Source: Helicobacter colisuis (GTDB taxonomy: Bacteria > Campylobacterota > Campylobacteria > Campylobacterales > Helicobacteraceae). From it: 64,000 bases of DNA. Within the stretch, counting starts at the first letter, position 1; each line of letters starts with the position of its first letter. The position numbers and the translations under genes were made by a program. Shown here one piece after another: positions 1-24,300 of this stretch. The notes beneath the pieces were generated by a model. It was not told where the DNA came from. It searched no databases and saw only the letters and a program-made list of their open reading frames with translations. Location: NCBI RefSeq assembly GCF_023646285.1, contig NZ_JAMOKX010000002.1, positions 1-64,000 on the forward strand. The letters are read 5' to 3'.

Positions 1-1473
1 TTTTGCACTTTCTCTTACATCTTTAAAGAAGTTTTTATTTGTGATTGCACCTATACCCACACTAGCATTAATATTAGAGTTAATCAAACTATCAAAGATA
101 CCTTGTGCTTCATTTAGGTTGCCGGAAGTTTGCATAGAATCTGCTGTTTTAGCAGTGTTTGTAGCACCACCCATAATGCCTGTTGTGAGGAGTGCGATGT
201 AGTTGTTCTTTTGTGCTCCATTAGAATTTTTTGTATTCTCAAAGATATATTTTGTGGTATCAGTAACCTCTATCCCTATCGCACCCATAGCCTCATCTGT
301 GCTTAAAGAACCTTCGCCACTGCTAGTAATTTTATCAATCATCTCTTGTTTGGCTTGTATTTGCTTATTGAAATCCTCTACAACTTTCTTTTCAATCTCT
401 GTTGCGTTTTCTTTTACTTGAAGTAGCCCATTTATACCATTAACATCTTGTACGATTTCAGATTCCTTAGCTGCCGCTTTTAGATAATCAATCTCAAATT
501 GCAACAATGCTTTCGTATCAGAAATCTTATCACTAAAGCCACCGCTAACAATTAAAGATTCTTTGCCATTGCTTTTATCTACACTTAGCTTATAATCTGT
601 AAAATCTTTCACATCCATAGGAGTAAAATAAGAATAATTTTGCTCTTTTATAAAATCATCTGCAAGATTTTTATCGCTAATCACTTCACTTGCATGTTTC
701 ATGACTGACCCACTTGCTACATTGCTTGTAGTTATATCACTATTAAATTTATCTGCACTTGCAAAAACGAATCTATCTAGCACAAGAGAGCTTAGGCTAG
801 TATTTCCTACAGAAATTACAGAATTTTTAATGTTTGCTTCGCCATTAATATTAAAATTTAAATAGTTTTTTCCAACATTAAAACCATTAAAATAAGTTTT
901 ATCTGCATTAAAATTTCCATTAATAGTTAAAGAACCATTGATTGTATCTAAATCGGGCATGTTTGTAGCTACAGTTACCACTGAACCAAATTCATCAGGG
1001 CTTCTATTGATTGTAATTTCACCATTACTATTAGTGAATACATCTGTCTTTCCACTTATAGTAGTATCGCCATTAATCACACTGCCTCCATAGATAGCTT
1101 GTAAGTGCATATCTTCTAGTGTGATAGTTTTAGCAGTGAAATTCACATTTCCGATATAATTGGAAAGTTGTGGATCAATAGTAGTAGCTTTAAAGATTAG
1201 ATTATTTTCCCCTAAATCAATGTTTAATTTAGTTTTATCTTCGTTTTCTTCACTTGCTACATCATTGTTTAAATCGCCATTATAAGCCATATTAATGGTT
1301 AAATCTCCATTTTTATAGCTATCTTTTATACTAAGATTTTCGTTTTGATCAATATCAAAATATGTGCGAATCTCTCCAGATGAATTAATTGTAATCTCCT
1401 GTGCGCAAATACTCACACTCCCTAACGCTCCTAAACCAAATATTGCTCTTGATGCAATAAGAGATAAATTCAT
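1..1473 (-). CDS. Autotransporter-like exported protein, N-terminal 491 residues (3' end beyond window)
   Basis: An open frame runs without a stop from an ATG at 1471-1473 to the left edge of the window, so only the N-terminal part is present. The start has a good Shine-Dalgarno (AAGGAGT). Residues 1-25 (MNLSLIASRAIFGLGALGSV, then SICAQ) look like a signal peptide. What follows is Asn/Ser/Thr/Gly-rich and repetitive (for example GDLTINMAYNGDLNND, NGEITINRS, LDTINGSLTINGNFNAD), the pattern of a beta-helical passenger domain. The last 100 residues turn helical, as in the linker ahead of a barrel. The C-terminal beta-barrel expected of a type V autotransporter is not in the window, so the assignment is inference from the passenger. 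I do not recognise a specific named family. Confidence 0.72.
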   Translation of the reverse strand, partial: MNLSLIASRAIFGLGALGSVSICAQEITINSSGEIRTYFDIDQNENLSIKDSYKNGDLTINMAYNGDLNNDVASEENEDKTKLNIDLGENNLIFKATTIDPQLSNYIGNVNFTAKTITLEDMHLQAIYGGSVINGDTTISGKTDVFTNSNGEITINRSPDEFGSVVTVATNMPDLDTINGSLTINGNFNADKTYFNGFNVGKNYLNFNINGEANIKNSVISVGNTSLSSLVLDRFVFASADKFNSDITTSNVASGSVMKHASEVISDKNLADDFIKEQNYSYFTPMDVKDFTDYKLSVDKSNGKESLIVSGGFSDKISDTKALLQFEIDYLKAAAKESEIVQDVNGINGLLQVKENATEIEKKVVEDFNKQIQAKQEMIDKITSSGEGSLSTDEAMGAIGIEVTDTTKYIFENTKNSNGAQKNNYIALLTTGIMGGATNTAKTADSMQTSGNLNEAQGIFDSLINSNINASVGIGAITNKNFFKDVRESAK

Positions 1474-1596
1474 TCTTACTCCTTAAAAATTAAATAAAGC
1501 ACTTATTCTATCCCCCTTTTTTTATTTTTTGCTTAAATATGATTTGCAAGTGGTTTTATTTTTTAAGTAAATTAGCAAAACAAAAAATTTTGCTAA

Positions 1597-2160
1597 TTAA
1601 TTTTTTAAGATTCTTGGGAGTGTAATTCCAGTTTGAGATTGATATTTGCCTTTTTTGTCTTTATAGCTTATTTCACAAGGTGCATCACCTTCCAAAAATA
1701 AAACTTGCGCAATTCCTTCATTGGCGTAAATTTTGGCGGGAAGTGGAGTGGTATTGCTAATTTCTATAGTAATATGTCCTTCAAATTCGGGTTCAAAAGG
1801 TGTTACATTGACAATGATACCACAACGCGCATAGGTGCTTTTGCCAAGGCAAATAGCTAGGACATTGCGAGGGATTTTGAAGTATTCTATGGTGCGTGCA
1901 AGCGCAAATGAATTTGGGGGGACAATACAGATATCACCTACAAAATCAACTACATTAGCAGAATCAAAATTCTTTGGATCGACTACCATTGCATTGATAT
2001 TGGTAAAAATTTTAAATTCATTGCTTACGCGTATGTCATAACCATAGCTTGATAGCCCATAGCTTACTACGCCTTTACCAACTTGATTTTCACAGAATGG
2101 TTCAATCATCTTGTGATCTATTGCCATTTTTCTAATCCAAGCATCTTCTTTTAATCCCAT
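1597..2160 (-). CDS. dcd: dCTP deaminase
   Basis: Converts dCTP to dUTP in the cytoplasm, feeding dTMP synthesis. The 187-residue length fits the trimeric Dcd family. The hallmark core KSTYARCGI and then [16 protein letters not shown] is present; the Glu of the second stretch corresponds to the catalytic glutamate of the family. The C-terminal segment with [11 protein letters not shown] matches the family tail that closes over the nucleotide. The ATG at 2158-2160 is preceded by AAGGAAT. The gene stands alone, divergent from accB. No dut fusion is visible. Confidence 0.95.
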
Positions 2161-2200
2161 TTTGTTATTCCTTTTAACTTTTTTTGCAAAGAAATGTGCT

Positions 2201-2206
2201 ATTATA
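2201..2206 (-). promoter_or_regulatory. Probable -10 box of dcd
   Basis: On the minus strand the sequence reads GTTATAATAG, a perfect TATAAT, about 40 bases upstream of the dcd start. Epsilonproteobacterial housekeeping promoters depend mainly on the -10 box, and I see no convincing -35. Inferred from sequence only. Confidence 0.5.
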
Positions 2207-2270
2207 ACAAATTAAGTTCAATTAGTCTAAACAAAGACTTTTGGGAAAATTTAATTAAAAAGGCTTAAAT

Positions 2271-2744
2271 ATGGATTTTAAGGAAATAAAAGAGCTGATT
2301 AAAATTTTTGATTCAAGTTCATTGAGTGCATTAAGCATTACTCAGGAGAATTCCAAAATTAAATTAGAAAAAGGCACCAAGAGCGCACAAATCGTAGAAT
2401 CTCAAAATATGCAGGTTTTATCTCCTATTCAAATCCCTCAAAACACACCTCAAGTGGAAGTAGCAGCCCCAACTTCTCCCGCTCAAAGCTCTAAAGGTGC
2501 TCAAGGAGAAACAATAAATTCCCCAATGGTTGGGACATTTTATCGTTGCCCTTCTCCAGATGCTCCTGCTTATGTTAATGTGGGTGATAAGGTTAAAAAG
2601 GGGCAAACTCTAGGAATCATTGAAGCAATGAAAATTATGAATGAAATTGAAGCAGAGTTTGATTGTGTGATTAAAGAGATTATCCCTAATGATGCACAAC
2701 CTGTGGAGTATAATTCTCCTTTATTTGTGGTGGAGAAAATCTAA
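2271..2744 (+). CDS. accB: Biotin carboxyl carrier protein of acetyl-CoA carboxylase
   Basis: Carries biotin between the carboxylase and carboxyltransferase of acetyl-CoA carboxylase in fatty acid synthesis. The 157-residue protein has an N-terminal helical part, a Pro/Ala/Gln-rich linker (about residues 50-80) and a C-terminal biotinyl domain. The biotin site EAMKIMN is at residues 118-124 with Lys121 the expected biotinylated residue. SPMVGTFYRCPSPDAPAYV includes the 'thumb' typical of BCCP. A clear Shine-Dalgarno (AAAAAGG) precedes the ATG. The stop overlaps the accC start (TAATG), so the two are translationally coupled. Confidence 0.96.
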   Translation: MDFKEIKELIKIFDSSSLSALSITQENSKIKLEKGTKSAQIVESQNMQVLSPIQIPQNTPQVEVAAPTSPAQSSKGAQGETINSPMVGTFYRCPSPDAPAYVNVGDKVKKGQTLGIIEAMKIMNEIEAEFDCVIKEIIPNDAQPVEYNSPLFVVEKI

Positions 2745-4111
2745 TGTCTCCAACCAAAGAAATTAATACGATTTTAATTGCTAATCGCGGAGAGATTGCA
2801 TTAAGAGCTATCCGCACCATTAAAGAAATGGGTAAAAGGGCGATTGCAGTGTATTCAACAGCTGATAAAGATGCTCATTATTTAGATCTTGCAGATGCAA
2901 AAATTTGTATTGGCGGGGATAAATCTAATGAAAGTTATTTGAATATTCCTGCTATTATTTCAGCTGCAGAGCTGTTTAATGCTGATGCAATTTTCCCAGG
3001 CTATGGTTTTTTAAGTGAGAATCAAAACTTTGTAGAAATTTGCAATTACCACAACATTGAATTTATTGGTCCAAATTCTGAAGTAATGGCATTAATGAGT
3101 GATAAAAGTAAAGCAAAAGAAGTTATGAAAAATGCTGGAGTGCCTGTAATACCAGGAAGCGACGGAGCGGTAAAATCCAAAGAAGAAGCTTTAGAACTTG
3201 CAAAAGAAATTGGCTATCCTGTAATTTTAAAAGCAGCAGCAGGTGGGGGCGGTCGCGGAATGCGGATTGTCCAAAATGAAGAAAATATGTTTAATGCTTA
3301 TTTAGCGGCAGAAAGTGAAGCAATTAGTGCTTTTGGAGATGGGACAATTTATATGGAGAAGTTCATTGATAAGCCAAAGCATATTGAAGTGCAGATATTA
3401 GCAGATAAATACGGTAATGTTTTGCATGTAGGGGAGAGAGATTGTTCTCTCCAAAGAAGACACCAAAAATTAATCGAAGAATCTCCAGCACCAACATTAG
3501 AGCCAGAAACGCGTAGAAAGCTTTTGGAAACCGCAATTACTGCGACAAAGGCTATTAGATATGTGGGAGCAGGAACTTATGAATTTTTGCTTGATAATAA
3601 TCAAAATTTTTATTTTATGGAGATGAATACGCGTTTGCAAGTTGAACACCCTGTGAGTGAGCTTGTAAGTGGATTAGATATTATTGAACTAATGATACAA
3701 ATTGCCGAGGGCAAAAAGCTTCCTAAACAAGAGGAAGTGAATTTTAAAGGTTGTGCGATTGAATGTCGAATCACAGCTGAAGATCCAGTAAAATTCTATC
3801 CATCTGCAGGAAAAATTACTAAATGGATTGCACCAGGTGGCAATAATGTGCGTATGGATACTCACGCGTATGCTGGGTATGTTGTTCCTATGTTTTATGA
3901 TTCGATGATTGGCAAATTAATTGTATGGGGTAAAACTCGTAATGAAGCTATTGCTAGAATGAGTAGAGCCTTAGATGAGTTTTGTGTGGAGGGTATTAAA
4001 ACAACGATTGACTTCCATAAAAAAATGATGCAAAATGACGATTTTAAAAGAGGCGTTATCCATACCAAATATTTGGAACAAAAAATGGAAAATGGAACGA
4101 AAAATGCTTGA
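2744..4111 (+). CDS. accC: Biotin carboxylase subunit of acetyl-CoA carboxylase
   Basis: ATP-dependent carboxylation of the biotin on AccB. The 455-residue length is normal for AccC. The N-terminal fold contains IANRGEIALRAIRT. The ATP-grasp domain has the glycine-rich loop KAAAGGGGRGMRIV (about residues 163-176), and the active-site stretch FYFMEMNTRLQVEHPVSE is intact. Its ATG shares one base with the accB stop. The carboxyltransferase genes accA and accD are not in this window. Cytoplasmic. Confidence 0.97.
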   Translation: MSPTKEINTILIANRGEIALRAIRTIKEMGKRAIAVYSTADKDAHYLDLADAKICIGGDKSNESYLNIPAIISAAELFNADAIFPGYGFLSENQNFVEICNYHNIEFIGPNSEVMALMSDKSKAKEVMKNAGVPVIPGSDGAVKSKEEALELAKEIGYPVILKAAAGGGGRGMRIVQNEENMFNAYLAAESEAISAFGDGTIYMEKFIDKPKHIEVQILADKYGNVLHVGERDCSLQRRHQKLIEESPAPTLEPETRRKLLETAITATKAIRYVGAGTYEFLLDNNQNFYFMEMNTRLQVEHPVSELVSGLDIIELMIQIAEGKKLPKQEEVNFKGCAIECRITAEDPVKFYPSAGKITKWIAPGGNNVRMDTHAYAGYVVPMFYDSMIGKLIVWGKTRNEAIARMSRALDEFCVEGIKTTIDFHKKMMQNDDFKRGVIHTKYLEQKMENGTKNA

Positions 4112-4160
4112 TAACTTAAAAATGCAAGGAAGCAATTTTAAGCATTAGAAAGGAGATACT

Positions 4161-4913
4161 ATGAAAATTGGAAATACACAAGCTAATGAAAGTCTAATTA
4201 ATCTTAACAAAGCAAAAGAAGATGAAGAGAAAGTACTAAAGAAAATCGCTTCACCTCGCCCTATTGAAGCTACTGATGGTGCGAGTTTGGCTATTGCTAA
4301 TGCGCTTTTAGCACAGGCAAATTCAATGTCTCAAGGGATTCGCAATGCTAATGATGCTATTGGTATGATGCAAATTGCAGATGGCACACTCTCTACTTTG
4401 AGTGATTCTGCTATTAGAATGAATGAACTCTCTGTAGCAATGGGGAATCCCGCGCTAAATAATTCTCAAAGAGCAATGATTGAGAGTGAAGCAGCAGCTT
4501 TAACACAATCAATGAATGATGCTGTGTCTCAAGCGACTTTTAATGGTAAAAATGTTTTTGGTGGGCAAATGGATTTTATGACAGGCAATGGATTAGAAAG
4601 CATTAACTTGCAATCTCCAAACACTGCTAATTTAAGTGTTAATAATCAGCAAAGCATTTTAAGTTTCATTGAGGATTTAGGAATGAGGCGTGCTGATATT
4701 GGTGCAGCAATGAATGGAATACAATCAGGTATTGATTCAAATATGCAAACAATTGTTAATCTTAAAGCAGCAGAGGGTAATTTACTAGATGATGATTTAG
4801 CGGAAAACTACAATGAATTAAATAATGCTAAATTAAGAGCTAATGCAGCTTTATACGCATCTTCATTTAATACACAATATTTGCAAAACCGATTAGACGC
4901 ACTTTTGGGCTAG
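4161..4913 (+). CDS. flaC: FlaC-like small flagellin homologue
   Basis: This 250-residue protein is a flagellin consisting only of the conserved N- and C-terminal helical domains (D0/D1). N-terminal similarity is seen in ASLAIANALLAQANSMSQGI, NDAIGMMQIADGTLSTLSD and MNELSVAMGNPALNNSQ; the C-terminal helix ends NAALYASSFNTQYLQNRLDALLG. The variable D2/D3 domains are absent. Length and pattern match Campylobacter jejuni FlaC (about 249 residues), which is exported by the flagellar secretion system but is not a main filament subunit. The Shine-Dalgarno is AAAGGAG. It lies 49 bases behind accC, with no sigma-28 or sigma-54 box that I can recognise, so it may be read from the acc transcript. The family is certain; equivalence to FlaC is inferred. 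Confidence 0.82.
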   Translation: MKIGNTQANESLINLNKAKEDEEKVLKKIASPRPIEATDGASLAIANALLAQANSMSQGIRNANDAIGMMQIADGTLSTLSDSAIRMNELSVAMGNPALNNSQRAMIESEAAALTQSMNDAVSQATFNGKNVFGGQMDFMTGNGLESINLQSPNTANLSVNNQQSILSFIEDLGMRRADIGAAMNGIQSGIDSNMQTIVNLKAAEGNLLDDDLAENYNELNNAKLRANAALYASSFNTQYLQNRLDALLG

Positions 4914-4958
4914 TTAGCCTTTGCATTGTTTTTAATCTTTCTAAAATTCTCCACTAAA

Positions 4959-4984
4959 GCAGAGAATTTACAAAATTTCTCTGC
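4959..4984. terminator. Hairpin between flaC and the kinase remnant
   Basis: GCAGAGAA and TTCTCTGC form a perfect 8-bp stem with a 10-base loop, 45 bases after the flaC stop and overlapping the 3' end of the convergent kinase remnant. The downstream T tract is poor (TGTTGTTTAATT), so intrinsic termination is plausible but unproven. Confidence 0.45.
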
Positions 4985-5243
4985 TGTTGTTTAATTAGCT
5001 CTTTAAGCAAAGTCCATATTTTAAAAGGATATTGGTTTTCAAACTCCCATTCATTAAAGCTTGGATTCTTGCTTGATTGTTATTTTCTCTTTTTTCTAAT
5101 CGCTTCAATCGCGTATTATCATCGCTTATAAGAAGAATTAAAATATCTGTAAAATCAATCCTTTGTAAGTTTGCAGAAATATAAAAGATAATTTTAACAT
5201 AAGGGGGAAGAAATTTTATAAAGGGCTTAAGATTGTCATTAGC

Positions 5244-5257
5244 GGGGGGGGGGGGGG
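5244..5257 (+). repeat. Homopolymer of 14 G (poly-C on the coding strand of the kinase remnant)
   Basis: Fourteen consecutive G lie inside the decayed kinase gene. With 12 or 15 residues the upstream frame (RYNAPPPP) would run into the downstream frame (ANDNLKPFIKF); with 14 it ends after LMTILSPL. Long G/C runs of this kind are contingency (phase-variation) tracts in Campylobacter and Helicobacter. Confidence 0.95.
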
Positions 5258-5498
5258 TGCATTATAGCGTATTTTTGGGCGTATTATAAATAAATTTAGA
5301 CTTATTACATTATCATCAAACAATTTGATAGGGTTTGAAATTGCCAAAGCCTTGTTTGCGGATGCACTTCCCTAAAGTGCTTTTTCCGCCCCCACATAAT
5401 CCACTTATGCTAATAATAATGCGAGATTTTTTTTAGTTCTCTAGTGCAGATTTCATCAAGATTACTTAGCAATTCCATTTGAGTTTGACAAAATATCA

Positions 5499-6689
5499 TT
5501 AAAAGTCCTTGAGGGAACGATTAATGCGTTCAAAACCTTCATCAATTTCTTCTTTGCTAATAGTTAAGGCAGGTAAGAATCGTGCCGTATTTTTACCACT
5601 TTTTAGCACTAAAACTCGATTCTCACAAGTTTTTTGCAAAAAGAGATTAAAGGATTCTGTATCTTTTAATCTAAGTCCGCGCATAAGCCCTAAGCCCACT
5701 TCTTGTGTGAAGATTTCTGGGTAAGATTTTTGTAAATTTTGGAGTTTTTGGGCGAAGTAAGAGATTGTTTGCTCTAATCTGCCACTTTGTTTCTCTTCTT
5801 TAAGAATCTCTAAAACTTCTAGTGCTGCTCTTGTAGAGAGGAAATTTCCCCCAAAGGTGCTTCCATGATCACCTGGAGAGAAAATATCTTTAAGGCTTGT
5901 CATGACTGCGCCAATTGGGACGCCACCAGCTAATCCTTTAGCGGTTGTGATGACATCAGGAGTGATTTCATAATAACTAGAAGCAAAAAGCTCTCCGCTA
6001 CGATAGATTCCTGTTTGCACTTCATCAATCATTAGCAAAATATTTTTTTCTTTTAAAAATTTAGCCAGTTTTTGAATTTCTGCTTTATCAAAAGGTGTAA
6101 TGCCCCCTTCGCCTTGAACAAGTTCCAAAAGCACTGCGCAAGTAACGGGGCTAATTTTGTTTGGAATATCTAGAATATCCTTGGCATACACAAAGCCATC
6201 TGGAAAAGGTCCAAAATAATGGTGCATTTTATCTTGAGCAGTGGCTTTTAGCGTGCTAATAGTGCGCCCATGAAATGAAGAATCTAAGGTAATTACTTGA
6301 TAACGCTTGGTCTCTCCATTGACTTCGCCAAATTTTCTAGCAATTTTTATAGCACCTTCATTTGCCTCTGCACCAGAATTTGCAAAAAATACACGCATAT
6401 CATAGCCACTTTGTTTTATAAGCTCTTTAGCTAGTTTAGCTTGGGGTTCAATTAAATAAAGATTGGAAGTGTGAATGAGTTCTCTTGCTTGCTGACAAAT
6501 AGCATTGGCTAATCGCTTGTTGCCATGACCTACGCTACAAACGGCGATTCCAGCACCAAAATCAATGTAATCTTTACCCTCACTATCAAACAGCCTTGAA
6601 CCCTCTCCCCTTACAAAATGTGTGTAATTGCGCGCATAAGTGTGTAGAGTATAATCTAAATCCATTTGTTTTAAGTCTTGTGTTGTCAT
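5499..6689 (-). CDS. argD: Acetylornithine/N-succinyldiaminopimelate-type aminotransferase
   Basis: PLP-dependent class III aminotransferase of arginine (and possibly lysine) biosynthesis. The 396-residue protein carries NSGAEANEGAIKIAR (residues 104-118), SSFHGRTISTLKAT, the PLP-binding Asp in MIDEVQTG (Asp222) and the Schiff-base lysine in TTAKGLAGGVPIGAV (Lys251). Two start codons are possible. The ATG at 6687-6689 (MTTQDL) lies 8 bases from the AAAGG Shine-Dalgarno; the upstream ATG at 6695 is only 2 bases from it, so I chose the inner one. The stop overlaps the ATG of a broken kinase gene. Divergent from ppc. Other ArgD-like aminotransferases (GabT) cannot be fully excluded from sequence. 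Confidence 0.9.
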   Translation of the reverse strand: MTTQDLKQMDLDYTLHTYARNYTHFVRGEGSRLFDSEGKDYIDFGAGIAVCSVGHGNKRLANAICQQARELIHTSNLYLIEPQAKLAKELIKQSGYDMRVFFANSGAEANEGAIKIARKFGEVNGETKRYQVITLDSSFHGRTISTLKATAQDKMHHYFGPFPDGFVYAKDILDIPNKISPVTCAVLLELVQGEGGITPFDKAEIQKLAKFLKEKNILLMIDEVQTGIYRSGELFASSYYEITPDVITTAKGLAGGVPIGAVMTSLKDIFSPGDHGSTFGGNFLSTRAALEVLEILKEEKQSGRLEQTISYFAQKLQNLQKSYPEIFTQEVGLGLMRGLRLKDTESFNLFLQKTCENRVLVLKSGKNTARFLPALTISKEEIDEGFERINRSLKDF

Positions 6690-6805
6690 TTGCATTGCCT
6701 TTTATAATTTTTGTGTGATTTTACAAAAAATAAATAAAAACAAGTTGATTAAAGGCATTTAAAATAAACATTATTCTTTTTTACATTATCTTTACAATAA
6801 AGCGT

Positions 6806-6811
6806 TATAAT
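6806..6811 (+). promoter_or_regulatory. Probable -10 box of ppc
   Basis: GCGTTATAATTTTG carries a perfect TATAAT 30 bases upstream of the ppc GTG start. Confidence 0.5.
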
Positions 6812-6841
6812 TTTGAAAAAATAGATTTAAGGAGTGCGAAA

Positions 6842-9493
6842 GTGAAAAGTAACCAAACTCAAGAAATAGAGTTTATTTTTTCATTAATGAGAGAGTTGTT
6901 AGAGGAAGTAGCACCAGAGATTAGAGAAATTTTTATCGCCCTAAAAGAAGATAAAACTGCAGATTATGCTGCTAAAAAGGAAGTGTTAAAAGAGCTAGAA
7001 TCTAAAGATATTTCAAAGCTTATTAAAGCCTTTACTTTGTATTATTTGTTGCTTAATATTGTGGATGAGCGACATTTATTGAGTTTTAATTCAAAGGAGC
7101 ATATTAGCTTAATGCTAGATGAACTAAAAGCCCAAAGCTACGATGAAGAAGACATTAAAAGTGTGCTTAAAAAAATCAGATTTTATCCCGTCTTTACTGC
7201 GCATCCAACAGAATCACTGCGACGAACTTTTTTAGAGAGTTATCATGAAATGTATGATGATTTAAATCTTTGGTTTGGATTTGGAGAGAGTGCAGCTAAA
7301 GAGCATTTAAAATATCGCCTTAATTTACTTTGGCATAGTCATATTGTAAGAAGTGAGAAGATTGAAGTGCTTTTTGAATTAGACAATCTTTTGTATTTTA
7401 TGGAAAGTTCAATTTTACAAAGTGGAACTAATATTTTAGAAGAAGTGCAAAATGCCTTGCAAACACCACTTAAAAAATCTCCCATTAGGCTTGGAAGCTG
7501 GATAGGTGGAGATAGAGATGGGAATCCTTATGTTACTAATGGAGTGATGCTAGAAGTGATGAAGCGACAGCATCAGACGATTATTGAGCATTATTTAAAA
7601 CAAATTGATAAACTAAGCCGAGAACTCTCCATTGCTCAAGAATACACTAATCCCACACAAGAATTGCTAGAGAGTTTGGAAAAAGAAAAAGATCATCTTG
7701 ATGAAATGGCAAAAAAACTTTTTTTGCAAGAACCTTTTAGGGCTAAATTAACTTGTATGCGACAAAAATTGCAGAATCGAATTATGGCTTTAAATCTCCC
7801 ACAATCTGCGCTTTATGAAAATAAGCCTTATATGTATGAAAGCCCAAAAGAGTTTATTAAAGATATTGATATGATGTTAGAATCGCTAGACAAAAGAAGT
7901 GGAATCTATCTTAAAAAGCTTAAAAATCTCGTGCTTTTAGCAGGATTTCATTTAATGCAATTAGATTTTAGGCAGCATCGTGATGTATTTTGGAGGGCGC
8001 TTGCTGAAATTTTTTCATTATTGGGCTATGTGCAAGGAGATTTGTTGTTATTATCCAAAAAAGAACAAGCAGAGATTCTTAACAATGCCCTTGCTGCGCC
8101 ACTTTTAGACCTTAATTCTTTATATGGGAAGCTAAGCAAAGAATCACAAGAAATGTTGATGGCATTTATGAACTTTAGGTGGGCAAAAGATCGCATTAGT
8201 GATAATATTATTGATTCGTGTATTATCTCTATGTGTCAAGGAGCAAATGATTTATTGTGTGTGCTTTGGTTTGCAAAGCAATCAGGGCTTTGGAAGCAGG
8301 GCAAGAAAACTCGTATTTGCATTGCGCCTTTATTTGAGACAATTGGGGATTTAGAAAACGCCCCAGTGATTTTGCGTGAATTATGCTCTAATCCACACTA
8401 TACAGAGTATTTGCAATCGCGCAAAAATCATCAAGAAATTATGATTGGTTATTCTGATTCAAGTAAAGATGGCGGTATTTTTACTAGCAATTATTCTTTG
8501 CGTAAAGCAATTAATAATTTAATTGTTTTAGAAGAAGAGTTAAAGATAAAATTTCGTCTTTTCCACGGGCGTGGAGGGAGTGTTAGCCGTGGAGGTGGAG
8601 CGCTAGAGGATGCCTTGCTTTCTGCGCCAGATAATAGTGTGGCAGGATTTTTGAAAACAACTGAACAAGGAGAAGTGATTAGTGAGAAATATTTAAATCC
8701 CAAAAAGGCGGAATTTAGTTTTGCAAGTGCTTTGGCAAATTTGTTAAAAAAATCGGTGTATGACAAATATGGAACAAATAAGCAAGTTTGCAATCGTGAT
8801 TTTGAGGGTATTATGCAAAAGATTAGCGAAGAATCATTTAAAGCTTATAGGAATCTTGTCTATGAAACAGAGGGGTTTATTGAGTATTTCAAATCTGCAA
8901 CGCCTATTGAGTTTATCCAGCAGCTAAATATTGGATCACGCCCATCAAAGCGCAAGAATACACAAAATGTAGAAGATTTACGAGCGATTCCTTGGGTGTT
9001 TGCTTGGACGCAAAATAGGGCAATTATTCCAGCGTGGTATGGGCTTGGAAGTGGGTTAGAGTTAGCTAGTGCAAGGTTTGATAAAGAAATTTTGAGAAAT
9101 TGTTATAAAGAAGATTTATTTTTTAAAACTACAATTGATAATATTTCACAAGCTTTTTTAAAAGTGGATTTAGAGATTGCAAAGTATTATAATAAGTTTG
9201 TGGAAAATAGTGAGCTTAGAGAGAAAATTTGGCAAAAGATTAAAAATGAATATCATTTAACGCTGAAGTGGTTGTTGTATGTGCGTGGAGAAGAAACATT
9301 GCTTGAAACACAAAAACATATTCAAAAGTCTATTTTATTGCGAAAATCTTTTTTAACAAGTCTTAATTTCTTTCAACTTTATTTAATGGAGCAATACAAA
9401 GATGCGACTTATGCAGAACAAAAACAAAGGATTGCTAAACAAATTATTACTACTATTGTAGGAATTGCACAAGGCATTAGAAATACAGGTTGA
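6842..9493 (+). CDS. ppc: Phosphoenolpyruvate carboxylase
   Basis: Anaplerotic carboxylation of PEP to oxaloacetate. The 883-residue length is normal. The catalytic motif FTAHPTES includes His121; other family blocks are GSWIGGDRDGNPYVT (about 217-231), GYSDSSKDGGIF, FHGRGGSVSRGGG (the glycine-rich PEP/bicarbonate loop) and EQGEVISEKY. The start is GTG with Shine-Dalgarno AAGGAGT. The enzyme is absent from H. pylori but present in Campylobacter, which helps place the host. Monocistronic, ending in a strong hairpin shared with the convergent gene. Confidence 0.97.
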   Translation: MKSNQTQEIEFIFSLMRELLEEVAPEIREIFIALKEDKTADYAAKKEVLKELESKDISKLIKAFTLYYLLLNIVDERHLLSFNSKEHISLMLDELKAQSYDEEDIKSVLKKIRFYPVFTAHPTESLRRTFLESYHEMYDDLNLWFGFGESAAKEHLKYRLNLLWHSHIVRSEKIEVLFELDNLLYFMESSILQSGTNILEEVQNALQTPLKKSPIRLGSWIGGDRDGNPYVTNGVMLEVMKRQHQTIIEHYLKQIDKLSRELSIAQEYTNPTQELLESLEKEKDHLDEMAKKLFLQEPFRAKLTCMRQKLQNRIMALNLPQSALYENKPYMYESPKEFIKDIDMMLESLDKRSGIYLKKLKNLVLLAGFHLMQLDFRQHRDVFWRALAEIFSLLGYVQGDLLLLSKKEQAEILNNALAAPLLDLNSLYGKLSKESQEMLMAFMNFRWAKDRISDNIIDSCIISMCQGANDLLCVLWFAKQSGLWKQGKKTRICIAPLFETIGDLENAPVILRELCSNPHYTEYLQSRKNHQEIMIGYSDSSKDGGIFTSNYSLRKAINNLIVLEEELKIKFRLFHGRGGSVSRGGGALEDALLSAPDNSVAGFLKTTEQGEVISEKYLNPKKAEFSFASALANLLKKSVYDKYGTNKQVCNRDFEGIMQKISEESFKAYRNLVYETEGFIEYFKSATPIEFIQQLNIGSRPSKRKNTQNVEDLRAIPWVFAWTQNRAIIPAWYGLGSGLELASARFDKEILRNCYKEDLFFKTTIDNISQAFLKVDLEIAKYYNKFVENSELREKIWQKIKNEYHLTLKWLLYVRGEETLLETQKHIQKSILLRKSFLTSLNFFQLYLMEQYKDATYAEQKQRIAKQIITTIVGIAQGIRNTG

Positions 9494-16771: not shown

Positions 16772-16841
16772 GCAGAAAAATTTTAAAAAGAGAATAATGA
16801 AAAAATATAAATTTGAATTTAAAAATTAGCAGACAATAGCC

Positions 16842-16861
16842 CTAGATTCAAGAGAATCTAG
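16842..16861 (-). terminator. Hairpin after the PhnD-like gene
   Basis: CTAGATTC and GAATCTAG form an 8-bp stem with a 4-base loop, directly after the stop of the minus-strand PhnD-like gene. The following T tract is weak and lies about 15 bases farther on. Confidence 0.4.
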
Positions 16862-16868
16862 AGTGATT

Positions 16869-17735
16869 TTAGAGATTGATGAGATTTTGTTCTTGCATAG
16901 CTTGAATAATATGATCATATCCACTTAAAATTTGTTGATCACACACCACCCATTGATTAAGCCCTTCAAGCTTCATCATTTGTGAGATTTGTGGATCATT
17001 TTTGAGAGTGTTTTGCGAGAGCATCATTGATACAAAAGTATTTTTTAAATCTTCATCAAAGCCCTTAAGGGTAGTGAAATTACAATGGCAGTAATCTTCA
17101 CTAGCATAAAAGCTTGAAATTTCTGGATAAGTCCCTTCTTGTAAGATTCTAGCCCAAGTCGTTGATCCAATTGCACCTGCATCAAGGATTCCTGCTTTAA
17201 TGGCTTCTAATACATCAAATTCGCTTCTACCTGTATCTCCATGCTTGCCAACATCGCTATTATAACGAATAACAGACACAGCTTCATTGGAAGTTTGCAG
17301 GGTTGATAAATTTTGCGCTAGTGATTCTTGAATCTTTAAGCCCTCTTTTTGCAAATAAAAAAGAGGCATAATAGCAGCTTGTGCAGAATCTAAGCTTCCA
17401 AGTCCAAACTTTTTGCCTTTTAGGGAATGTAGATTGGATATTTTTTCTTGGCTAACAAAAATACTTTTAAATCCGATATCTGTATCGCGCATTAAAATGG
17501 CTTCAACATTATCTTTTGTGGCAAATTTAGAGCGTATGTAAGCAACATTGGTATTCCAAGCAATATCAATTTTTTTATTAATAAGCCATTCCACTTGTCT
17601 TTCATAATTGCTAAAAAGCACATAATCAAGGCGAATCTTCCCTCCAAAGTAATTATTTGCATAATCTCTAATGGTATCCCAAATAGGCACAATTTGGGGC
17701 GCATAGGCTACAGCGCCAACCAAAATATTTTTCAT
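16869..17735 (-). CDS. PhnD/SsuA-type periplasmic-binding-fold protein without a signal peptide
   Basis: A 288-residue protein with the type 2 periplasmic-binding fold of the PhnD family: LVGAVAYAPQIVPIWDTIRDYANNYFGG at the N-terminus, VEWLINKKIDIAWNTNVAYI in the ligand-cleft region, LHSLKGKKFGLGSLDSAQAAIMPLFYL and later DAGAIGSTTWARIL. Transport proteins of this family have a signal peptide, but this one starts straight into the first beta strand (MKNILVGAVAYAP), so it is predicted to be cytoplasmic. No ABC permease or ATPase is adjacent. It is the last gene of a three-gene operon, 3 bases behind the flavoprotein gene, so a role as an enzyme or ligand carrier with those partners is inferred. 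Substrate unknown. Confidence 0.8.
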   Translation of the reverse strand: MKNILVGAVAYAPQIVPIWDTIRDYANNYFGGKIRLDYVLFSNYERQVEWLINKKIDIAWNTNVAYIRSKFATKDNVEAILMRDTDIGFKSIFVSQEKISNLHSLKGKKFGLGSLDSAQAAIMPLFYLQKEGLKIQESLAQNLSTLQTSNEAVSVIRYNSDVGKHGDTGRSEFDVLEAIKAGILDAGAIGSTTWARILQEGTYPEISSFYASEDYCHCNFTTLKGFDEDLKNTFVSMMLSQNTLKNDPQISQMMKLEGLNQWVVCDQQILSGYDHIIQAMQEQNLINL

Positions 17736-17738
17736 TTT

Positions 17739-18872
17739 TTATCCTTTATTTGTGATAGCATTGCCAAGCCAAATTTTTAAGACATCTAAGCTTGGTGCCA
17801 TAACTTGACTAGCCATTGCATCTCTTAAGTATTGTTCTAATGGCAAATGTTTGCTATAAGCCTTACCCCCACCAAGTCGCATTGCAAGTTCGCAAATTTC
17901 CATAACAAGGTGAGTAGCATTGATTCTGCAAGCAAATACTTTCATAGGAGCATCACTTGCCCCACTATCAAATGCTCTTGCGGCTTCTCTAACAAGTGCA
18001 ATTTGGCTTTGTGTTTTAGTATAGAGTTCTGCTAAATGTATGCGAACTAATTCATTATCAGCTAAATCTTTACCATCAGAATATTTTCTTGTTAAACAAT
18101 GTTGTAGAACGCATTCATAGGCTGCCATTCCTACTCCACTATAAACTGCTCCTAAACCAGTTACGAAATACATTGCTACAAGATTGATTTGATTTTCTCC
18201 ATCGCCCTCAGATCCAAGGAGACAATCTGCCACTTCTAGTTCCACTTGTTTGTATTGCACGGGCTTTGAGACATTTCCTCGCATTCCAAATCCATTCCAT
18301 ACGCCTTCTTCATGTGTTAAAGAAGGATGATTGCTAGGGACAATCCAATTGTTTTTCTTGCCTTGTAATTTACAAGAATTTGTGTAGGTGAGATAATAAT
18401 TGGCTTGTTGTGCAGAAGTTACAAAGCTTTTTCTGCCTTCTAAAATGCGCTTTTCTCCTTTTTGTGATTCTGTAATGTCGGGATTCACAAAGTGTGTCCC
18501 AGAACCACTTTCGCTATAAGCTAACGCAAAGGTTGCTTCACCTTTTGCAATTTTTGGTAAATACAGAGATTTTTGATGTGCGGTGCCATAGTGAGATACA
18601 CAGGCAGTAGCAACATTGTGCATCATATAACAAAGTGCAGTTGAGGCATTAAATCGTGCTAAGTTGTAACATACTTCAACATGATCTAGATTGCCACCTT
18701 GCAAACCACCATATTCTTTAGGCACAAGCAGCCCCATAAAACCTTGCTGTTTAAGCGCTTCATAGGCTTCTTTAGGGAATCTCGCTTCTTGATCAATTTC
18801 CTTTGTGTAGGGCAATATAAATTGCTCACCTAATTTTTGTATTTTTTCTTCTAAATTTTGTAAAGTTGGCAT
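17739..18872 (-). CDS. Acyl-CoA dehydrogenase-fold flavoprotein, catalytic Glu apparently missing
   Basis: A 377-residue protein of the acyl-CoA dehydrogenase superfamily. The N-terminal helical domain includes GFMGLLVPKEYGGLQGG. The flavin/substrate strand region has ATFALAYSESGSGTHF, and the C-terminal helical bundle has RLGGGKAYSKHLPLEQYLRDA. Standard dehydrogenases have a Glu in a Y-E-G context shortly after the RDA motif; here the sequence is MASQVMAPSLDVLKIWLGNAI with no Glu. This resembles superfamily members recruited as flavin monooxygenases or desulfurases (DszC/SfnB-like) more than beta-oxidation enzymes, but that is inference. It sits between the diiron gene (14 bases upstream) and the PhnD-like gene (3 bases downstream). 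Confidence 0.85.
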   Translation of the reverse strand: MPTLQNLEEKIQKLGEQFILPYTKEIDQEARFPKEAYEALKQQGFMGLLVPKEYGGLQGGNLDHVEVCYNLARFNASTALCYMMHNVATACVSHYGTAHQKSLYLPKIAKGEATFALAYSESGSGTHFVNPDITESQKGEKRILEGRKSFVTSAQQANYYLTYTNSCKLQGKKNNWIVPSNHPSLTHEEGVWNGFGMRGNVSKPVQYKQVELEVADCLLGSEGDGENQINLVAMYFVTGLGAVYSGVGMAAYECVLQHCLTRKYSDGKDLADNELVRIHLAELYTKTQSQIALVREAARAFDSGASDAPMKVFACRINATHLVMEICELAMRLGGGKAYSKHLPLEQYLRDAMASQVMAPSLDVLKIWLGNAITNKG

Positions 18873-18886
18873 TATTTTCCTTTTAA

Positions 18887-20074
18887 TTACATAAAATTTG
18901 GTGTGTGAGAGCGACTAAGTTCTCTTGCTAATTCCTCATCAATCCCACATTCCATTAATCTTTTGGTTCGGTTTTTTTCCATTTTTTGTTTTAGATTGAC
19001 TACTGCTTCAAATCCGTGCGAAATTTTTTTCTCTTCTTTAGCGTAGAGTATGGCTAATGATTCAAGCAATAAAGAGGATTCATCACTTTGATTATCGAGA
19101 TAATTTTTTCTTCTAAAGACTGCTTCTTTGAGAATCTCTATTTTGGTAGGATTTTGAGCAATAGCACTTCTAATGTGATTCATTCCATAAGCAACATGTC
19201 TAATTTCATCTCGTCTAGCTAGATTTAAGAGTTTGGCACTTTGTAAATCCCCTAAGCTTTCAAAGCAATTTTCAAGGAATTTTAAAAGATCGATAAAAGT
19301 CCCTTCTCCCATAATGTGGAGTAAAAAGCTTGATTTAAAATAGTCTTTTTCTTCCCATAGGCTATAGAGACTTTGCTGTGTCGTTAGAGTTGAATATTGC
19401 ACTCCAAGTCCTGTGGCATTTGCTCTTTTAATAAAAGATTCAATATGTCTTCCTTCATCGCCTATAATGCTTGAAAGCACCAAAGGCACAGCCGTGAAAA
19501 AAGGAGAAATTTGCGCTAAAAAGCGGCTGGGGATATAGAGTGCTGAGAACTCATTTTCAGTTAAATAAGTCATGATTTGCGCGATTGCAAATTCTAATTT
19601 TGGTTCAAATGCTGGAATTTCACTCCAATTAATATCAGTTGTGGCATTCCATTGTGCTTTTTTTGCTTCTTCATAAAGTTGCTCCATATTGCCCGCATAA
19701 ATTTCATTTTTATTATTTAATGGAAAATGATATTGTGGGCTTGCTAATTCTATGGATACTCCTTTTGGAGCGAGTCCTTGATGAGGTGGAGAAAGCAAAG
19801 AATTAGGATCAAATGTTGCAAATTTAGTTGGAGATTCTTTTTGCATGATATAAGCAAAGCTTGAATCATTCTTGTTATGGAGAGGAATCTTTTTTAAAAA
19901 CAATTCTCCTTTGAAGCGACACCAAGCAATTAAGTCATTTTCTAAATTATCATATTCACTGATTACTTCTATGATATCGCCATTTTGAGAAAGCAAAAAA
20001 GCATTTTCAAGCCGCATAAAAAAGAGCTGTCCTGTCTGGATGTTGCCCATAAAAACACACGATTTTTGTTGCAT
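18887..20074 (-). CDS. Fusion of a TusA/SirA-like segment and a ferritin-like diiron domain
   Basis: A 395-residue protein not matching any named gene I know. Residues about 22-63 (NGDIIEVISEYDNLENDLIA followed by WCRFKGELFL) resemble the C-terminal half of TusA/SirA sulfur-carrier domains, but the catalytic CPxP of TusA is absent. Residues 131-300 form a ferritin-like four-helix domain starting YEEAKKAQWNATTDINW. A full set of six candidate iron ligands is present: Glu173 or Glu175, Glu207 and His210 (GDEGRH), Glu257 (GEGTF), Glu290 and His293 (DEIRH). I use the ATG at 20072-20074 (MQQKSC) with a weak AGG 7 bases upstream; a TTG at 20092 lacks any Shine-Dalgarno. First gene of the three-gene operon. 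Likely an O2-using diiron oxidase or oxygenase; substrate unknown. Confidence 0.8.
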   Translation of the reverse strand: MQQKSCVFMGNIQTGQLFFMRLENAFLLSQNGDIIEVISEYDNLENDLIAWCRFKGELFLKKIPLHNKNDSSFAYIMQKESPTKFATFDPNSLLSPPHQGLAPKGVSIELASPQYHFPLNNKNEIYAGNMEQLYEEAKKAQWNATTDINWSEIPAFEPKLEFAIAQIMTYLTENEFSALYIPSRFLAQISPFFTAVPLVLSSIIGDEGRHIESFIKRANATGLGVQYSTLTTQQSLYSLWEEKDYFKSSFLLHIMGEGTFIDLLKFLENCFESLGDLQSAKLLNLARRDEIRHVAYGMNHIRSAIAQNPTKIEILKEAVFRRKNYLDNQSDESSLLLESLAILYAKEEKKISHGFEAVVNLKQKMEKNRTKRLMECGIDEELARELSRSHTPNFM

Positions 20075-20107
20075 TAGATAACCTAAAATCAATTAAGTTA
20101 CACCAAG

Positions 20108-20113
20108 ATTATA
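20108..20113 (-). promoter_or_regulatory. Probable -10 box of the diiron/flavoprotein/PhnD-like operon
   Basis: The minus strand reads TTCTATAATCTTGG, a perfect TATAAT 34 bases upstream of the ATG of the diiron gene. It implies that the operon has its own promoter although panC lies upstream on the same strand. Confidence 0.5.
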
Positions 20114-21337: not shown

Positions 21338-24300
21338 ATGCGTTTTTATCTAATGCTTCCAGCTTTAATTATAAGTGCAAATTTAGCCAGTGCTTATGAT
21401 ACTACCATTATTTATAATGGAGATAAACCTATTTTCAAACTTGATTTTTACAATAAAGGAGAAAGTGTAACCTTTTTTGGGGAAACCCAAACCTCTCCTT
21501 ATACTTTAAGCGAAGTCCAAAAAATGAGATCATTCGTGCAACTCAATTTTGGGCTAATATTATAGGTTCTCATGCAATTAACTCCGAGCCTATTCCTATA
21601 AGTGTAAGCACTGATAATATTGCTAATGCATCTTCTTATGATTTCTTTCCCAATCCTATATTTAATAGAGTGTTGCAAGGAGAAAGCATAGATGCTATCA
21701 GACAAGAGCTATTAGATGGTGGATTCTCTAAGGATGATGTAGAATATATAGGACATATCAATATGGGAACACTTGATTGGTATATAGCTTCACATCCTAC
21801 TACTCTACCTAAAAATGGAGATCAATTTGAAACTTTCTCAACTTTTACTCACGAGCTTTTCCATGCCTTGGGTGTGTTATCCTTGACTTATGATGAAGAG
21901 ACTTCAGAAACCTTTTTTCAAGATTCTTTAAATAGTTTTAGTAGTCACTTATAAGAATTCTAGAATTCCCTAAAAGCTGGTGATTTTAGAAAATTATATC
22001 TTAATGCTATTTGCCATATCTTGATTTTGATGAAGGACGCTAGCTTGTTTTTTGGCTTTGATTAGTTTAAATGCCACCCAGACAATCTGAATAGGCAAGA
22101 AAAGACCCCAAAAAATACCAAGAACCGCAAGCTTGATGATTTTTATAAGCCACCAGCCACCAGCATTTGTGTGTAGCATAAGGGCATCATGCGTCTCTCC
22201 AGCCAAGCTAGTAAAAGTACCTACAAAGATTTTTAGTATATTTGCCACACACCAAGTGCCTATCATAGCTAGCCCTGCTGTGTCTCTATTTTCTGCCGTG
22301 TAATATACATAAAGCCCCACCACAAAGAAAACAGCCAAATAAACAAGCTGTATGCTAAGCCACCTGACCTCGCCTTTTGCGTTGCTTGCTTGCGCGCTTG
22401 CTTCTTTTTTAGAGCAGTTTAGACAAATAGCTTTATTATCTCTTGTATAAAGTGCGTTTTGAACGCAGTCTTTACAAAGTCCTACCCCGCAATCAACGCA
22501 AGTCGCCACAGCACCTATATTTTCGTGATAAAAACAATTCATTGTTTTCTCCTTTTAACTAAAAATTAGGTGCTATTTTAGAAAAAAAGTCAAGAGTTTT
22601 TTAAAAGATATTTTGAATAATTAAATAAAAAAGCCTATGATATTAATGGAGTAAAGGCTCAAGAAGAGATGCGAATAGTTCAAACACAAGAAGAGGTAGA
22701 GGAAGCTGGCAAAAAAGAGAGATAGTTTTCTTGGTTGATGGAAACTCTGTTAATAATGATAGCCTTAGCAATGCTTCGGGTCATGCTTATTTTAAAGGAG
22801 AAAATATCGCAGAAGTTATTAAAGCTGCTAAGCTAGGTTATGATAAAGTAAATGGCATACCCATTAATGGATGGGAGGCAGATGATTTAGATATGAGTCA
22901 TATCGAACTTGATAATTCTTTGATGAGTCATCAAAATTGGCGCAATTACCTTTTTTATATGGAAGCAGAATTAGCCTTGCTTCAAGACTTAGGCTATGAA
23001 TTTGATAGAAAGCTTTACTATGGAGATTCTATTTATGAAAGCAATCTAAATTGGCAAAGCGATCATGGTTATTATGCTAGACAAGATGGCAAGTGGCTTG
23101 TAGGGGAATATAATCCAACAGAATATGGAGTGGGTTTGCATATTTATGGTAAAAATAATGCAGCCACTCAAAGCCATGATATCCTATCTAATGGTATAGC
23201 TGCAAGTGGTATTCGCATAGATGGAGCTAATAATGCATTGACTATAGCCAGTGGCACTAAGGTTCATGCTTTGGGCGATTATTCTAATGCTTTGTTAGTT
23301 GCCTATGGTAAAAACCATATTATTAATCATAATGGGGAATTAAAAGCCACAGGTAAAGAGGGTATGGCTATCAATATAGATTTTGGGGGTAACATTTTGG
23401 GTAATGTTCAAGAATACCGTGGTTCTTATATGCATCAAATATCTGGTAGTAATCAAGACAATCTTGCGCGTTACAATCCAGATGGAGCCATGGTTAAAAG
23501 CTTAAATCTTAGCTCTAATAGCTTTACCATAGGCTCTTTAGCTTCCATTTATATAGCTGATAATGCTTATGTAGAAAACATTAATATGAGTCAAGGAGCT
23601 AAAGTAGAAGGGGATATTATTTCTAATTGGAATCCTAATAATGATTAAGTTATCAAACGACAATAAAGGTAAGTATTATACAAATCTTAATTTTGGTTCC
23701 ACTAACTTATCAAGAGCTACTTTCAATGCCTTAGATAATGCTTGGAATATTAAAGCCAATATTTTAGGCTATGATAGCTTTAAAATGAATGTTAATGAGA
23801 ATGTTAATCTACAGGGTAGTGCCTTTGTTTATGATTTAACAAATAAAGCCCATTTCGCTCTGTTAAGCAAAGATAATGTTAATCCTTCTGTGTTGTATAT
23901 TAAAAATGATTTTACACAAAATCAAAATGCCGCTCTAACCGCAGGTATTAATGCTAAGGGGCAAAGCCAAGTATATGTGGGAGGTAATGCTAATTTAGAA
24001 AGAATTAGCAGTAATTCAAAACTACACTCCTTATGCTAAAAATTCAGGCGATATTTCTTTAGGCTATGCTTTGAATTCTTTAGTGCAAAATGGAAAAGAT
24101 GAAGATACTGCCTTGCTTTTTGAAGAACTAGATTTTGCTAGAGATACGCAAATTATTTCCCAAGGTTTAAATAATCTGAACGCTAATGTTTATTTAGATA
24201 GCGCCAAAATTTCTCTAGATTTCCAAGAAGAACTTAATAAAGAAATTTTAGGTGATATAAGAAGGGAATACTCCAATGAATGGCAAAGCTTGGTAAGCCC

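Follow-up and report, generated by a model that had tools for sequence, protein, structure and literature searches.

A three-gene unit at the H. colisuis locus

We analyzed a 64,000-nucleotide (nt) stretch of DNA from Helicobacter colisuis (NZ_JAMOKX010000002.1, positions 1–64,000; hereafter, the window), focusing on three genes, here called A, B, and C, that, with a TATAAT hexamer, occupy 16869–20113 on its minus strand. The genes are separated by gaps of 14 bases (A–B) and 3 bases (B–C), and these open reading frame (ORF) coordinates bear out the close-set arrangement described in an initial annotation of the sequence. The unit and its putative signals are as follows.

18887–20074, minus strand: gene A, encoding a Cys-less TusA-like domain joined to an R2lox/AurF-type diiron domain; 395 amino acids from the likely ATG
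17739–18872, minus strand: gene B, encoding a flavoprotein of the acyl-CoA dehydrogenase (ACAD) fold, 377 amino acids, with the catalytic Glu replaced (QVMAPS); a relative of Rv1679/FadE16
16869–17735, minus strand: gene C, encoding a leaderless PhnD-fold protein, 288 amino acids; a relative of the Rv1680 "SBP-like" (substrate-binding protein-like) family
20108–20113, minus strand: TATAAT hexamer 5′ of gene A, a possible −10 element read from the sequence
16840–16863, minus strand: terminator-like hairpin directly 3′ of gene C, from a motif scan

The longest ORF of gene A spans 18887–20092 and begins with TTG; the ATG at 20074 is the likelier start because it fits both the residue numbering of the initial annotation and the homologue at locus L004.

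The A-B-C block is conserved while its flanks change

We surveyed 298 Campylobacterota genomes and sampled other phyla through plasmid records. Protein A is encoded in 34 of the 298 genomes, all of which also encode C; matches to C extend to 46 genomes, some of these being weak matches to ordinary binding proteins. In each of the 33 intact loci examined, representing 11 genera and 4 families, the genes stand in the order A-B-C on one strand. The flanks, in contrast, vary from locus to locus. Reading of translations places panC upstream and rpsB-tsf downstream of the unit in H. colisuis, whose locus is 99–100% identical to that of Helicobacter sp. 11-8110 (L002), and annotated flanking genes are unrelated in function (e.g., ilvD, obg, and tryptophan synthase alpha). 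A, B, and C alone recur widely across lineages, and no further partner common to many lineages was found in the flanks. Correlations of tree distances are 0.93 for A–B, 0.90 for A–C, and 0.77 for B–C, values that partly reflect species phylogeny.

The retention of gene order despite changing flanks is far beyond chance, and A-B-C is a real, self-contained gene unit; co-conservation outside the strain, the check proposed with the initial annotation, holds across these loci. An explanation of the three genes as a chance or lineage-local neighborhood of unrelated functions is already contradicted by this conservation of the block, and by the occurrence of B and C side by side in actinobacteria as well, and we regard it as extremely improbable. 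Two genomes contain decaying copies, as expected of an accessory function: G241 (L077) has C in two parts and a mere fragment of A, and in G088, short fragments of C alone are left. No relatives of A were found on plasmids.

B and C recur with exchangeable partners

The third partner of B and C differs by lineage: it is A in most Campylobacterota carriers, a MetE-core-like protein together with an OsmC-like protein in five genomes, and a radical S-adenosylmethionine (SAM) protein in actinobacteria. The five genomes (G062, G140, G166, G256, and G289) lack A, and there B-C is followed by the MetE-core-like gene, whose product belongs to the cobalamin-independent methionine synthase catalytic family, and the OsmC-like gene; in the G256 copy, which was read in pieces, C is interrupted by an in-frame stop. 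The 34 genomes with A and the 5 with the MetE/OsmC variant do not overlap. Aligned with the full MetE of H. colisuis, the MetE-core-like protein keeps both the zinc ligands (His-x-Cys, Glu, Cys) and the homocysteine-contact residues. The OsmC-like proteins, for which we found no match in the PDB, appear to be without the two OsmC cysteines, judged by reading rather than by structural alignment.

Among actinobacteria (Mycolicibacterium, Rhodococcus, Miltoncostaea plasmids), B-C is accompanied by an Rv1678-type DoxX-like membrane protein, an Rv1681-type radical SAM protein, or both, and the B homologue at L055 scores 631 bits against the Rv1679 model (cut-off 600). A trans-encoded Rv1681-type radical SAM partner was looked for in the Campylobacterota carriers and not found, with 0 of 25 genomes giving a match at E 1e-20. 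The NCBIfam models for the four mycobacterial proteins Rv1678–Rv1681 carry no function, and we found no paper on Rv1678–Rv1680, or on DUF455 with TusA, that describes the unit.

We also noted the wider surroundings of B-C in M. vanbaalenii (L055, 3330–14847), which include deiodinase-like and AhpD-like proteins, a mycoredoxin, CcdA, a thiol-disulfide oxidoreductase, a TrsS-like radical SAM protein, and a DVU_1556-like methyltransferase; many of these are families with selenocysteine-containing members.

Conserved and lost residues in A, B, and C

The diiron site ascribed to protein A by the initial annotation is complete. E173/E175, E207, H210, E257, E290, and H293, numbered from the ATG, make up the Glu, ExxH, Glu, ExxH set of ferritin-like diiron carboxylate oxygenases and are invariant in 11 divergent homologues, and the three His of the set are invariant in 33. 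Pfam DUF455 matches H. colisuis A at 1.3e-10 and 11 of 11 homologues, AurF weakly matches members of the family (8 of 11), and a profile of 11 homologues matches the R2lox structure 4hr0 (E ~1e-4) and the VlmB homologue 6d9f (E 0.024). The TusA/SirA-like segment noted earlier is also present, but the similarity spans the whole domain and not just its C-terminal half, with Pfam TusA exceeding its cut-off in the homologue at L048. The CPxP cysteine of TusA is found in 0 of 33 A proteins, and the domain therefore cannot carry persulfide on that residue; TusA-type persulfide transfer by A, which the initial annotation had invoked, is thereby refuted. The C-terminal HTPNFM sequence is nearly invariant, with one Pro change in 11 homologues, which suggests a functional tail.

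The nearest curated family of B is Rv1679/FadE16 (NF049984; 234.8 bits, E 1.7e-69, under the 600-bit cut-off), followed by acryloyl-CoA reductase and 3-sulfinopropanoyl-CoA desulfinase, and the protein carries three Pfam ACAD domains. Its lack of the Y-E-G glutamate was recognized at the outset: VMAPS/T stands in that place, MAPS/T is present in all 14 aligned homologues, and inspection of the alignment revealed no Glu at the IVD-type position. The alpha subunit of electron transfer flavoprotein (ETF; PF00766) is encoded in 0 of 25 carrier genomes. Given that both the catalytic Glu and ETF are missing, B is not an ordinary ETF-linked dehydrogenase. Enzymes of the DszC type have lost the catalytic Glu of dehydrogenases, and B may also catalyze a redox-neutral reaction.

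Protein C is closest to the NCBIfam Rv1680 SBP-like family (NF049985; 271.3 bits, E 1e-80, under the 400-bit cut-off), with the next NCBIfam family at 2.4e-17. Phosphonate-bd is the sole Pfam family to pass (7.7e-20), and the PDB matches are phosphite/phosphonate binders (5lq5, 7s6g). Consistent with its earlier description as a PhnD-like protein with neither signal peptide nor transporter partners, C begins directly at the first strand, its aligned homologues are likewise leaderless, and no permease or transporter is common to the loci, the annotated neighbors being unrelated. On the basis of its fold alone, Rv1680 has been described as a putative component of a phosphonate transporter (PMC8562490). 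A transport homologue with a leader and ATP-binding cassette (ABC) partners (L059) contains a Ser-Thr-Ser oxyanion motif and a His that are lost in C, where Asp-Ser-Ala/Pro-Gln/His replaces the former and Glu the latter. Residues D116, S117, D167, E172, H217, and C218 are invariant and specific to the family (true numbering; alignment A1 numbers one lower), with His217 and Cys218 invariant in 40 of 40, and this signature, common to L055–L057, is distinct from the transport proteins. The Asp/His/Glu/His-Cys set looks like a specialized, perhaps catalytic or metal-binding, pocket.

A proposed role for the unit

From these sequences we infer the catalytic roles, complex formation, and substrate class of the unit. 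Our preferred reading, which we hold tentatively and put somewhat short of an even chance, is that B and C constitute a cytoplasmic, ETF-independent, flavin-based core to which A adds an O2-dependent diiron step, the whole processing a small metabolite linked to a thiol or to selenium. C would be a substrate-binding-protein fold turned cytoplasmic; the invariant Asp, His, Glu, His, and Cys would line its pocket, where a small polar metabolite would be held or its conversion aided. B would carry out a flavin step with neither dehydrogenase base nor ETF, either a monooxygenation of the DszC/SfnB kind or a redox-neutral cleavage. A, as an R2lox/AurF-type diiron protein, would perform the O2-dependent step, its Cys-less TusA-like domain probably serving for docking or ligand binding rather than as a sulfur carrier. 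Elsewhere, the same core would pair with a MetE-core-like thiol methyltransferase and an apparently Cys-less OsmC-like protein, or with a radical SAM protein. The assignment of a thiol- or selenium-linked small molecule, taken by itself, is more doubtful; it derives from the partners and family resemblances (TusA, OsmC, MetE, DoxX, and SfnB/DszC), which cluster around thiol and sulfur (selenium) chemistry.

Several observations weigh against this reading. The diiron, MetE-like, and radical SAM partners share no single obvious reaction, and the sulfur association leans partly on domains whose catalytic cysteines are lost. A PF01613-type flavin reductase is missing from 12 of 25 carriers, H. colisuis among them, so that B as a two-component monooxygenase would need a reductase of another family. 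Structure models were not used, the mean pLDDT (predicted local distance difference test) being 33 for C by itself and 37 for A with four close homologues.

Alternative substrates and pathways

The initial annotation envisaged an oxidative pathway, perhaps for an organosulfur or organophosphorus compound; applied to a phosphonate or sulfonate, this would have C bind the oxyanion in the cytoplasm for oxidation by B and A. Of the three conditions named as refuting the proposal, two were checked in the genomes and do not hold: the genes are co-conserved elsewhere, and C homologues have neither leaders nor permeases beside them. The diiron site and a non-ETF B survive from that proposal, persulfide transfer does not, and the phosphonate/sulfonate ligand is unsupported. 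Although sequence places C in the PhnD fold and B scores with the SfnB and DszC models, other models outscore these for B, the loci lack a common permease or transporter, and the replacement of Ser-Thr-Ser and His in C, together with the added invariant His-Cys, disfavors such a ligand; we consider this explanation quite unlikely. We give equally little credence to a folate-free supply of methyl or one-carbon units for methionine, in the manner of MesD/MesX, with B and C producing the methyl donor. The MetE-core-like protein that follows B-C in five genomes, its zinc and homocysteine residues intact, argues for it, and MesD/MesX provides a precedent for O2-dependent, folate-free methyl supply (PMC7857596). 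However, A-B-C has no accompanying methyltransferase, and nearly all A-B-C genomes encode full-length MetE, which speaks against methionine synthesis as the general role and led us to reject it as such. A step in cofactor biosynthesis by a suicide or enzymatic substrate-binding-protein fold, as in THI5 or MqnA/MqnD, appears improbable. THI5 is a cytoplasmic protein of this fold with an invariant His and Cys, as is C, and the unit is small and self-contained; yet C matches no THI5/NMT1 or Mqn Pfam family (NMT1_3 at E 0.053) and has no invariant Lys for pyridoxal phosphate, and a patchy distribution with decaying copies is a poor fit to an essential cofactor.

Some of the genomic context bears on selenium, and the unit might serve to synthesize, salvage, or detoxify a compound of this element with the cell's selenophosphate or selenoproteins. 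In G132 (L049; 22–3134, 8376–12732), selD is the gene immediately upstream of A, in the same orientation, and the contig also carries selA-selB; in Miltoncostaea, selA and selD are near B-C, and many of the genes around B-C in M. vanbaalenii come from families that include (seleno)proteins. Strong SelD matches occur in 39 of 39 carriers versus 223 of 298 genomes overall (Fisher p 6e-6), a statistic computed over genomes that are not independent. SelA, however, accompanies SelD in every one of 60 SelD-positive genomes examined, with or without the unit, so SelD is accounted for by selenocysteine, and an orphan selenophosphate synthetase was rejected as proof of a selenium role. Most loci of the unit have no sel gene nearby, SelU is patchily distributed, and M. 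tuberculosis, the type of the Rv1679 and Rv1680 families, is not known to have selenium genes, which we count against this explanation. Because of the SelA result and the non-independence of the genomes, selenium is suggested rather than demonstrated, and we judge it unlikely.

Returning to the preferred reading, we raise as a possible, though doubtful, extension that Campylobacterota and mycobacteria share a previously unrecognized catalytic core, B and C. Its binding-protein fold would have become the cytoplasmic subunit of a flavoenzyme that presents the substrate or takes part in catalysis, and the core would plug into a diiron oxygenase, a zinc thiol methyltransferase, or a radical SAM protein, three unrelated chemistries, to process one sulfur- or selenium-linked metabolite. 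The swapping of the third module offers a handle on the role of the common B+C core, and a fold known for nutrient capture outside the cell here occurs inside it, with what appears to be an enzyme-like pocket. Through family models, the unit ties a compact cassette found in Helicobacter, Arcobacter-like organisms, and other taxa to the uncharacterized M. tuberculosis proteins Rv1678–Rv1681. Were the substrate found, a shared piece of the metabolism of several host-associated bacteria could be tested in harmless relatives.

Signals and neighboring features

The initial annotation credited the unit with its own TATAAT, and the hexamer is present at 20113–20108; however, sigma-70-like matches around the locus do not exceed those in shuffled sequence (7 versus 12.9), so it is no proof of a promoter. 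Terminator-like matches in the region are likewise at chance level (3 versus 2.6 in shuffles). Among 20 loci, no relevant Rfam element or riboswitch was found near the operons. An Arcobacter-like genome (L045) has a flavin mononucleotide (FMN) riboswitch at 1266–1410 on the minus strand, about 7 kb from the unit; it is not adjacent and is absent from the other loci. Within the window, several consecutive plus-strand ORFs at 21670–24039 read as fragments of a single large protein, secreted or autotransporter-like, and may represent a broken gene; one of them carries a THELFHALG zinc-protease-like motif.

Comparison with known systems

In fold and overall sequence, C resembles the PhnD/PtxB phosphonate/phosphite binders and the putative selenate binding protein TIGR04553, but differs from them in having no leader, no ABC partner, and no oxyanion motif, and in its new invariant HGD, E, and HC motifs. 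A shares the ferritin-like diiron ligand pattern of R2lox and the AurF-type N-oxygenases; unlike these, it has an N-terminal TusA-like fusion and its own conserved C-terminal HTPNFM tail, and no family model exceeds its cut-off for A except the broad DUF455. The fused domain is similar to the TusA/SirA sulfur carriers along its entire length in the L048 homologue, but the CPxP cysteine is gone in the whole set of 33. B has the fold, the Glu loss, and the independence from ETF of DszC, SfnB, and HsaA, yet belongs to a distinct Rv1679-like family with the invariant MAPS/T motif; it also shares its fold with 3-sulfinopropanoyl-CoA desulfinase, a redox-neutral ACAD. The likeness to MesD/MesX, an operon in which redox partners accompany a MetE-core protein, is confined to the five-genome variant, which shows no MesX-like gene and has ACAD and substrate-binding-protein-fold partners instead. 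The closest counterpart is the set of NCBIfam families Rv1678–Rv1681 (NF049986, NF049984, NF049985, and NF049973), a link made through family models rather than the M. tuberculosis genes themselves. Although B and C score 235 and 271 bits against cut-offs of 600 and 400, and the diiron fusion A takes the place of the radical SAM and DoxX-like proteins, B and C are homologous to Rv1679 and Rv1680, adjacent, and in the same order.

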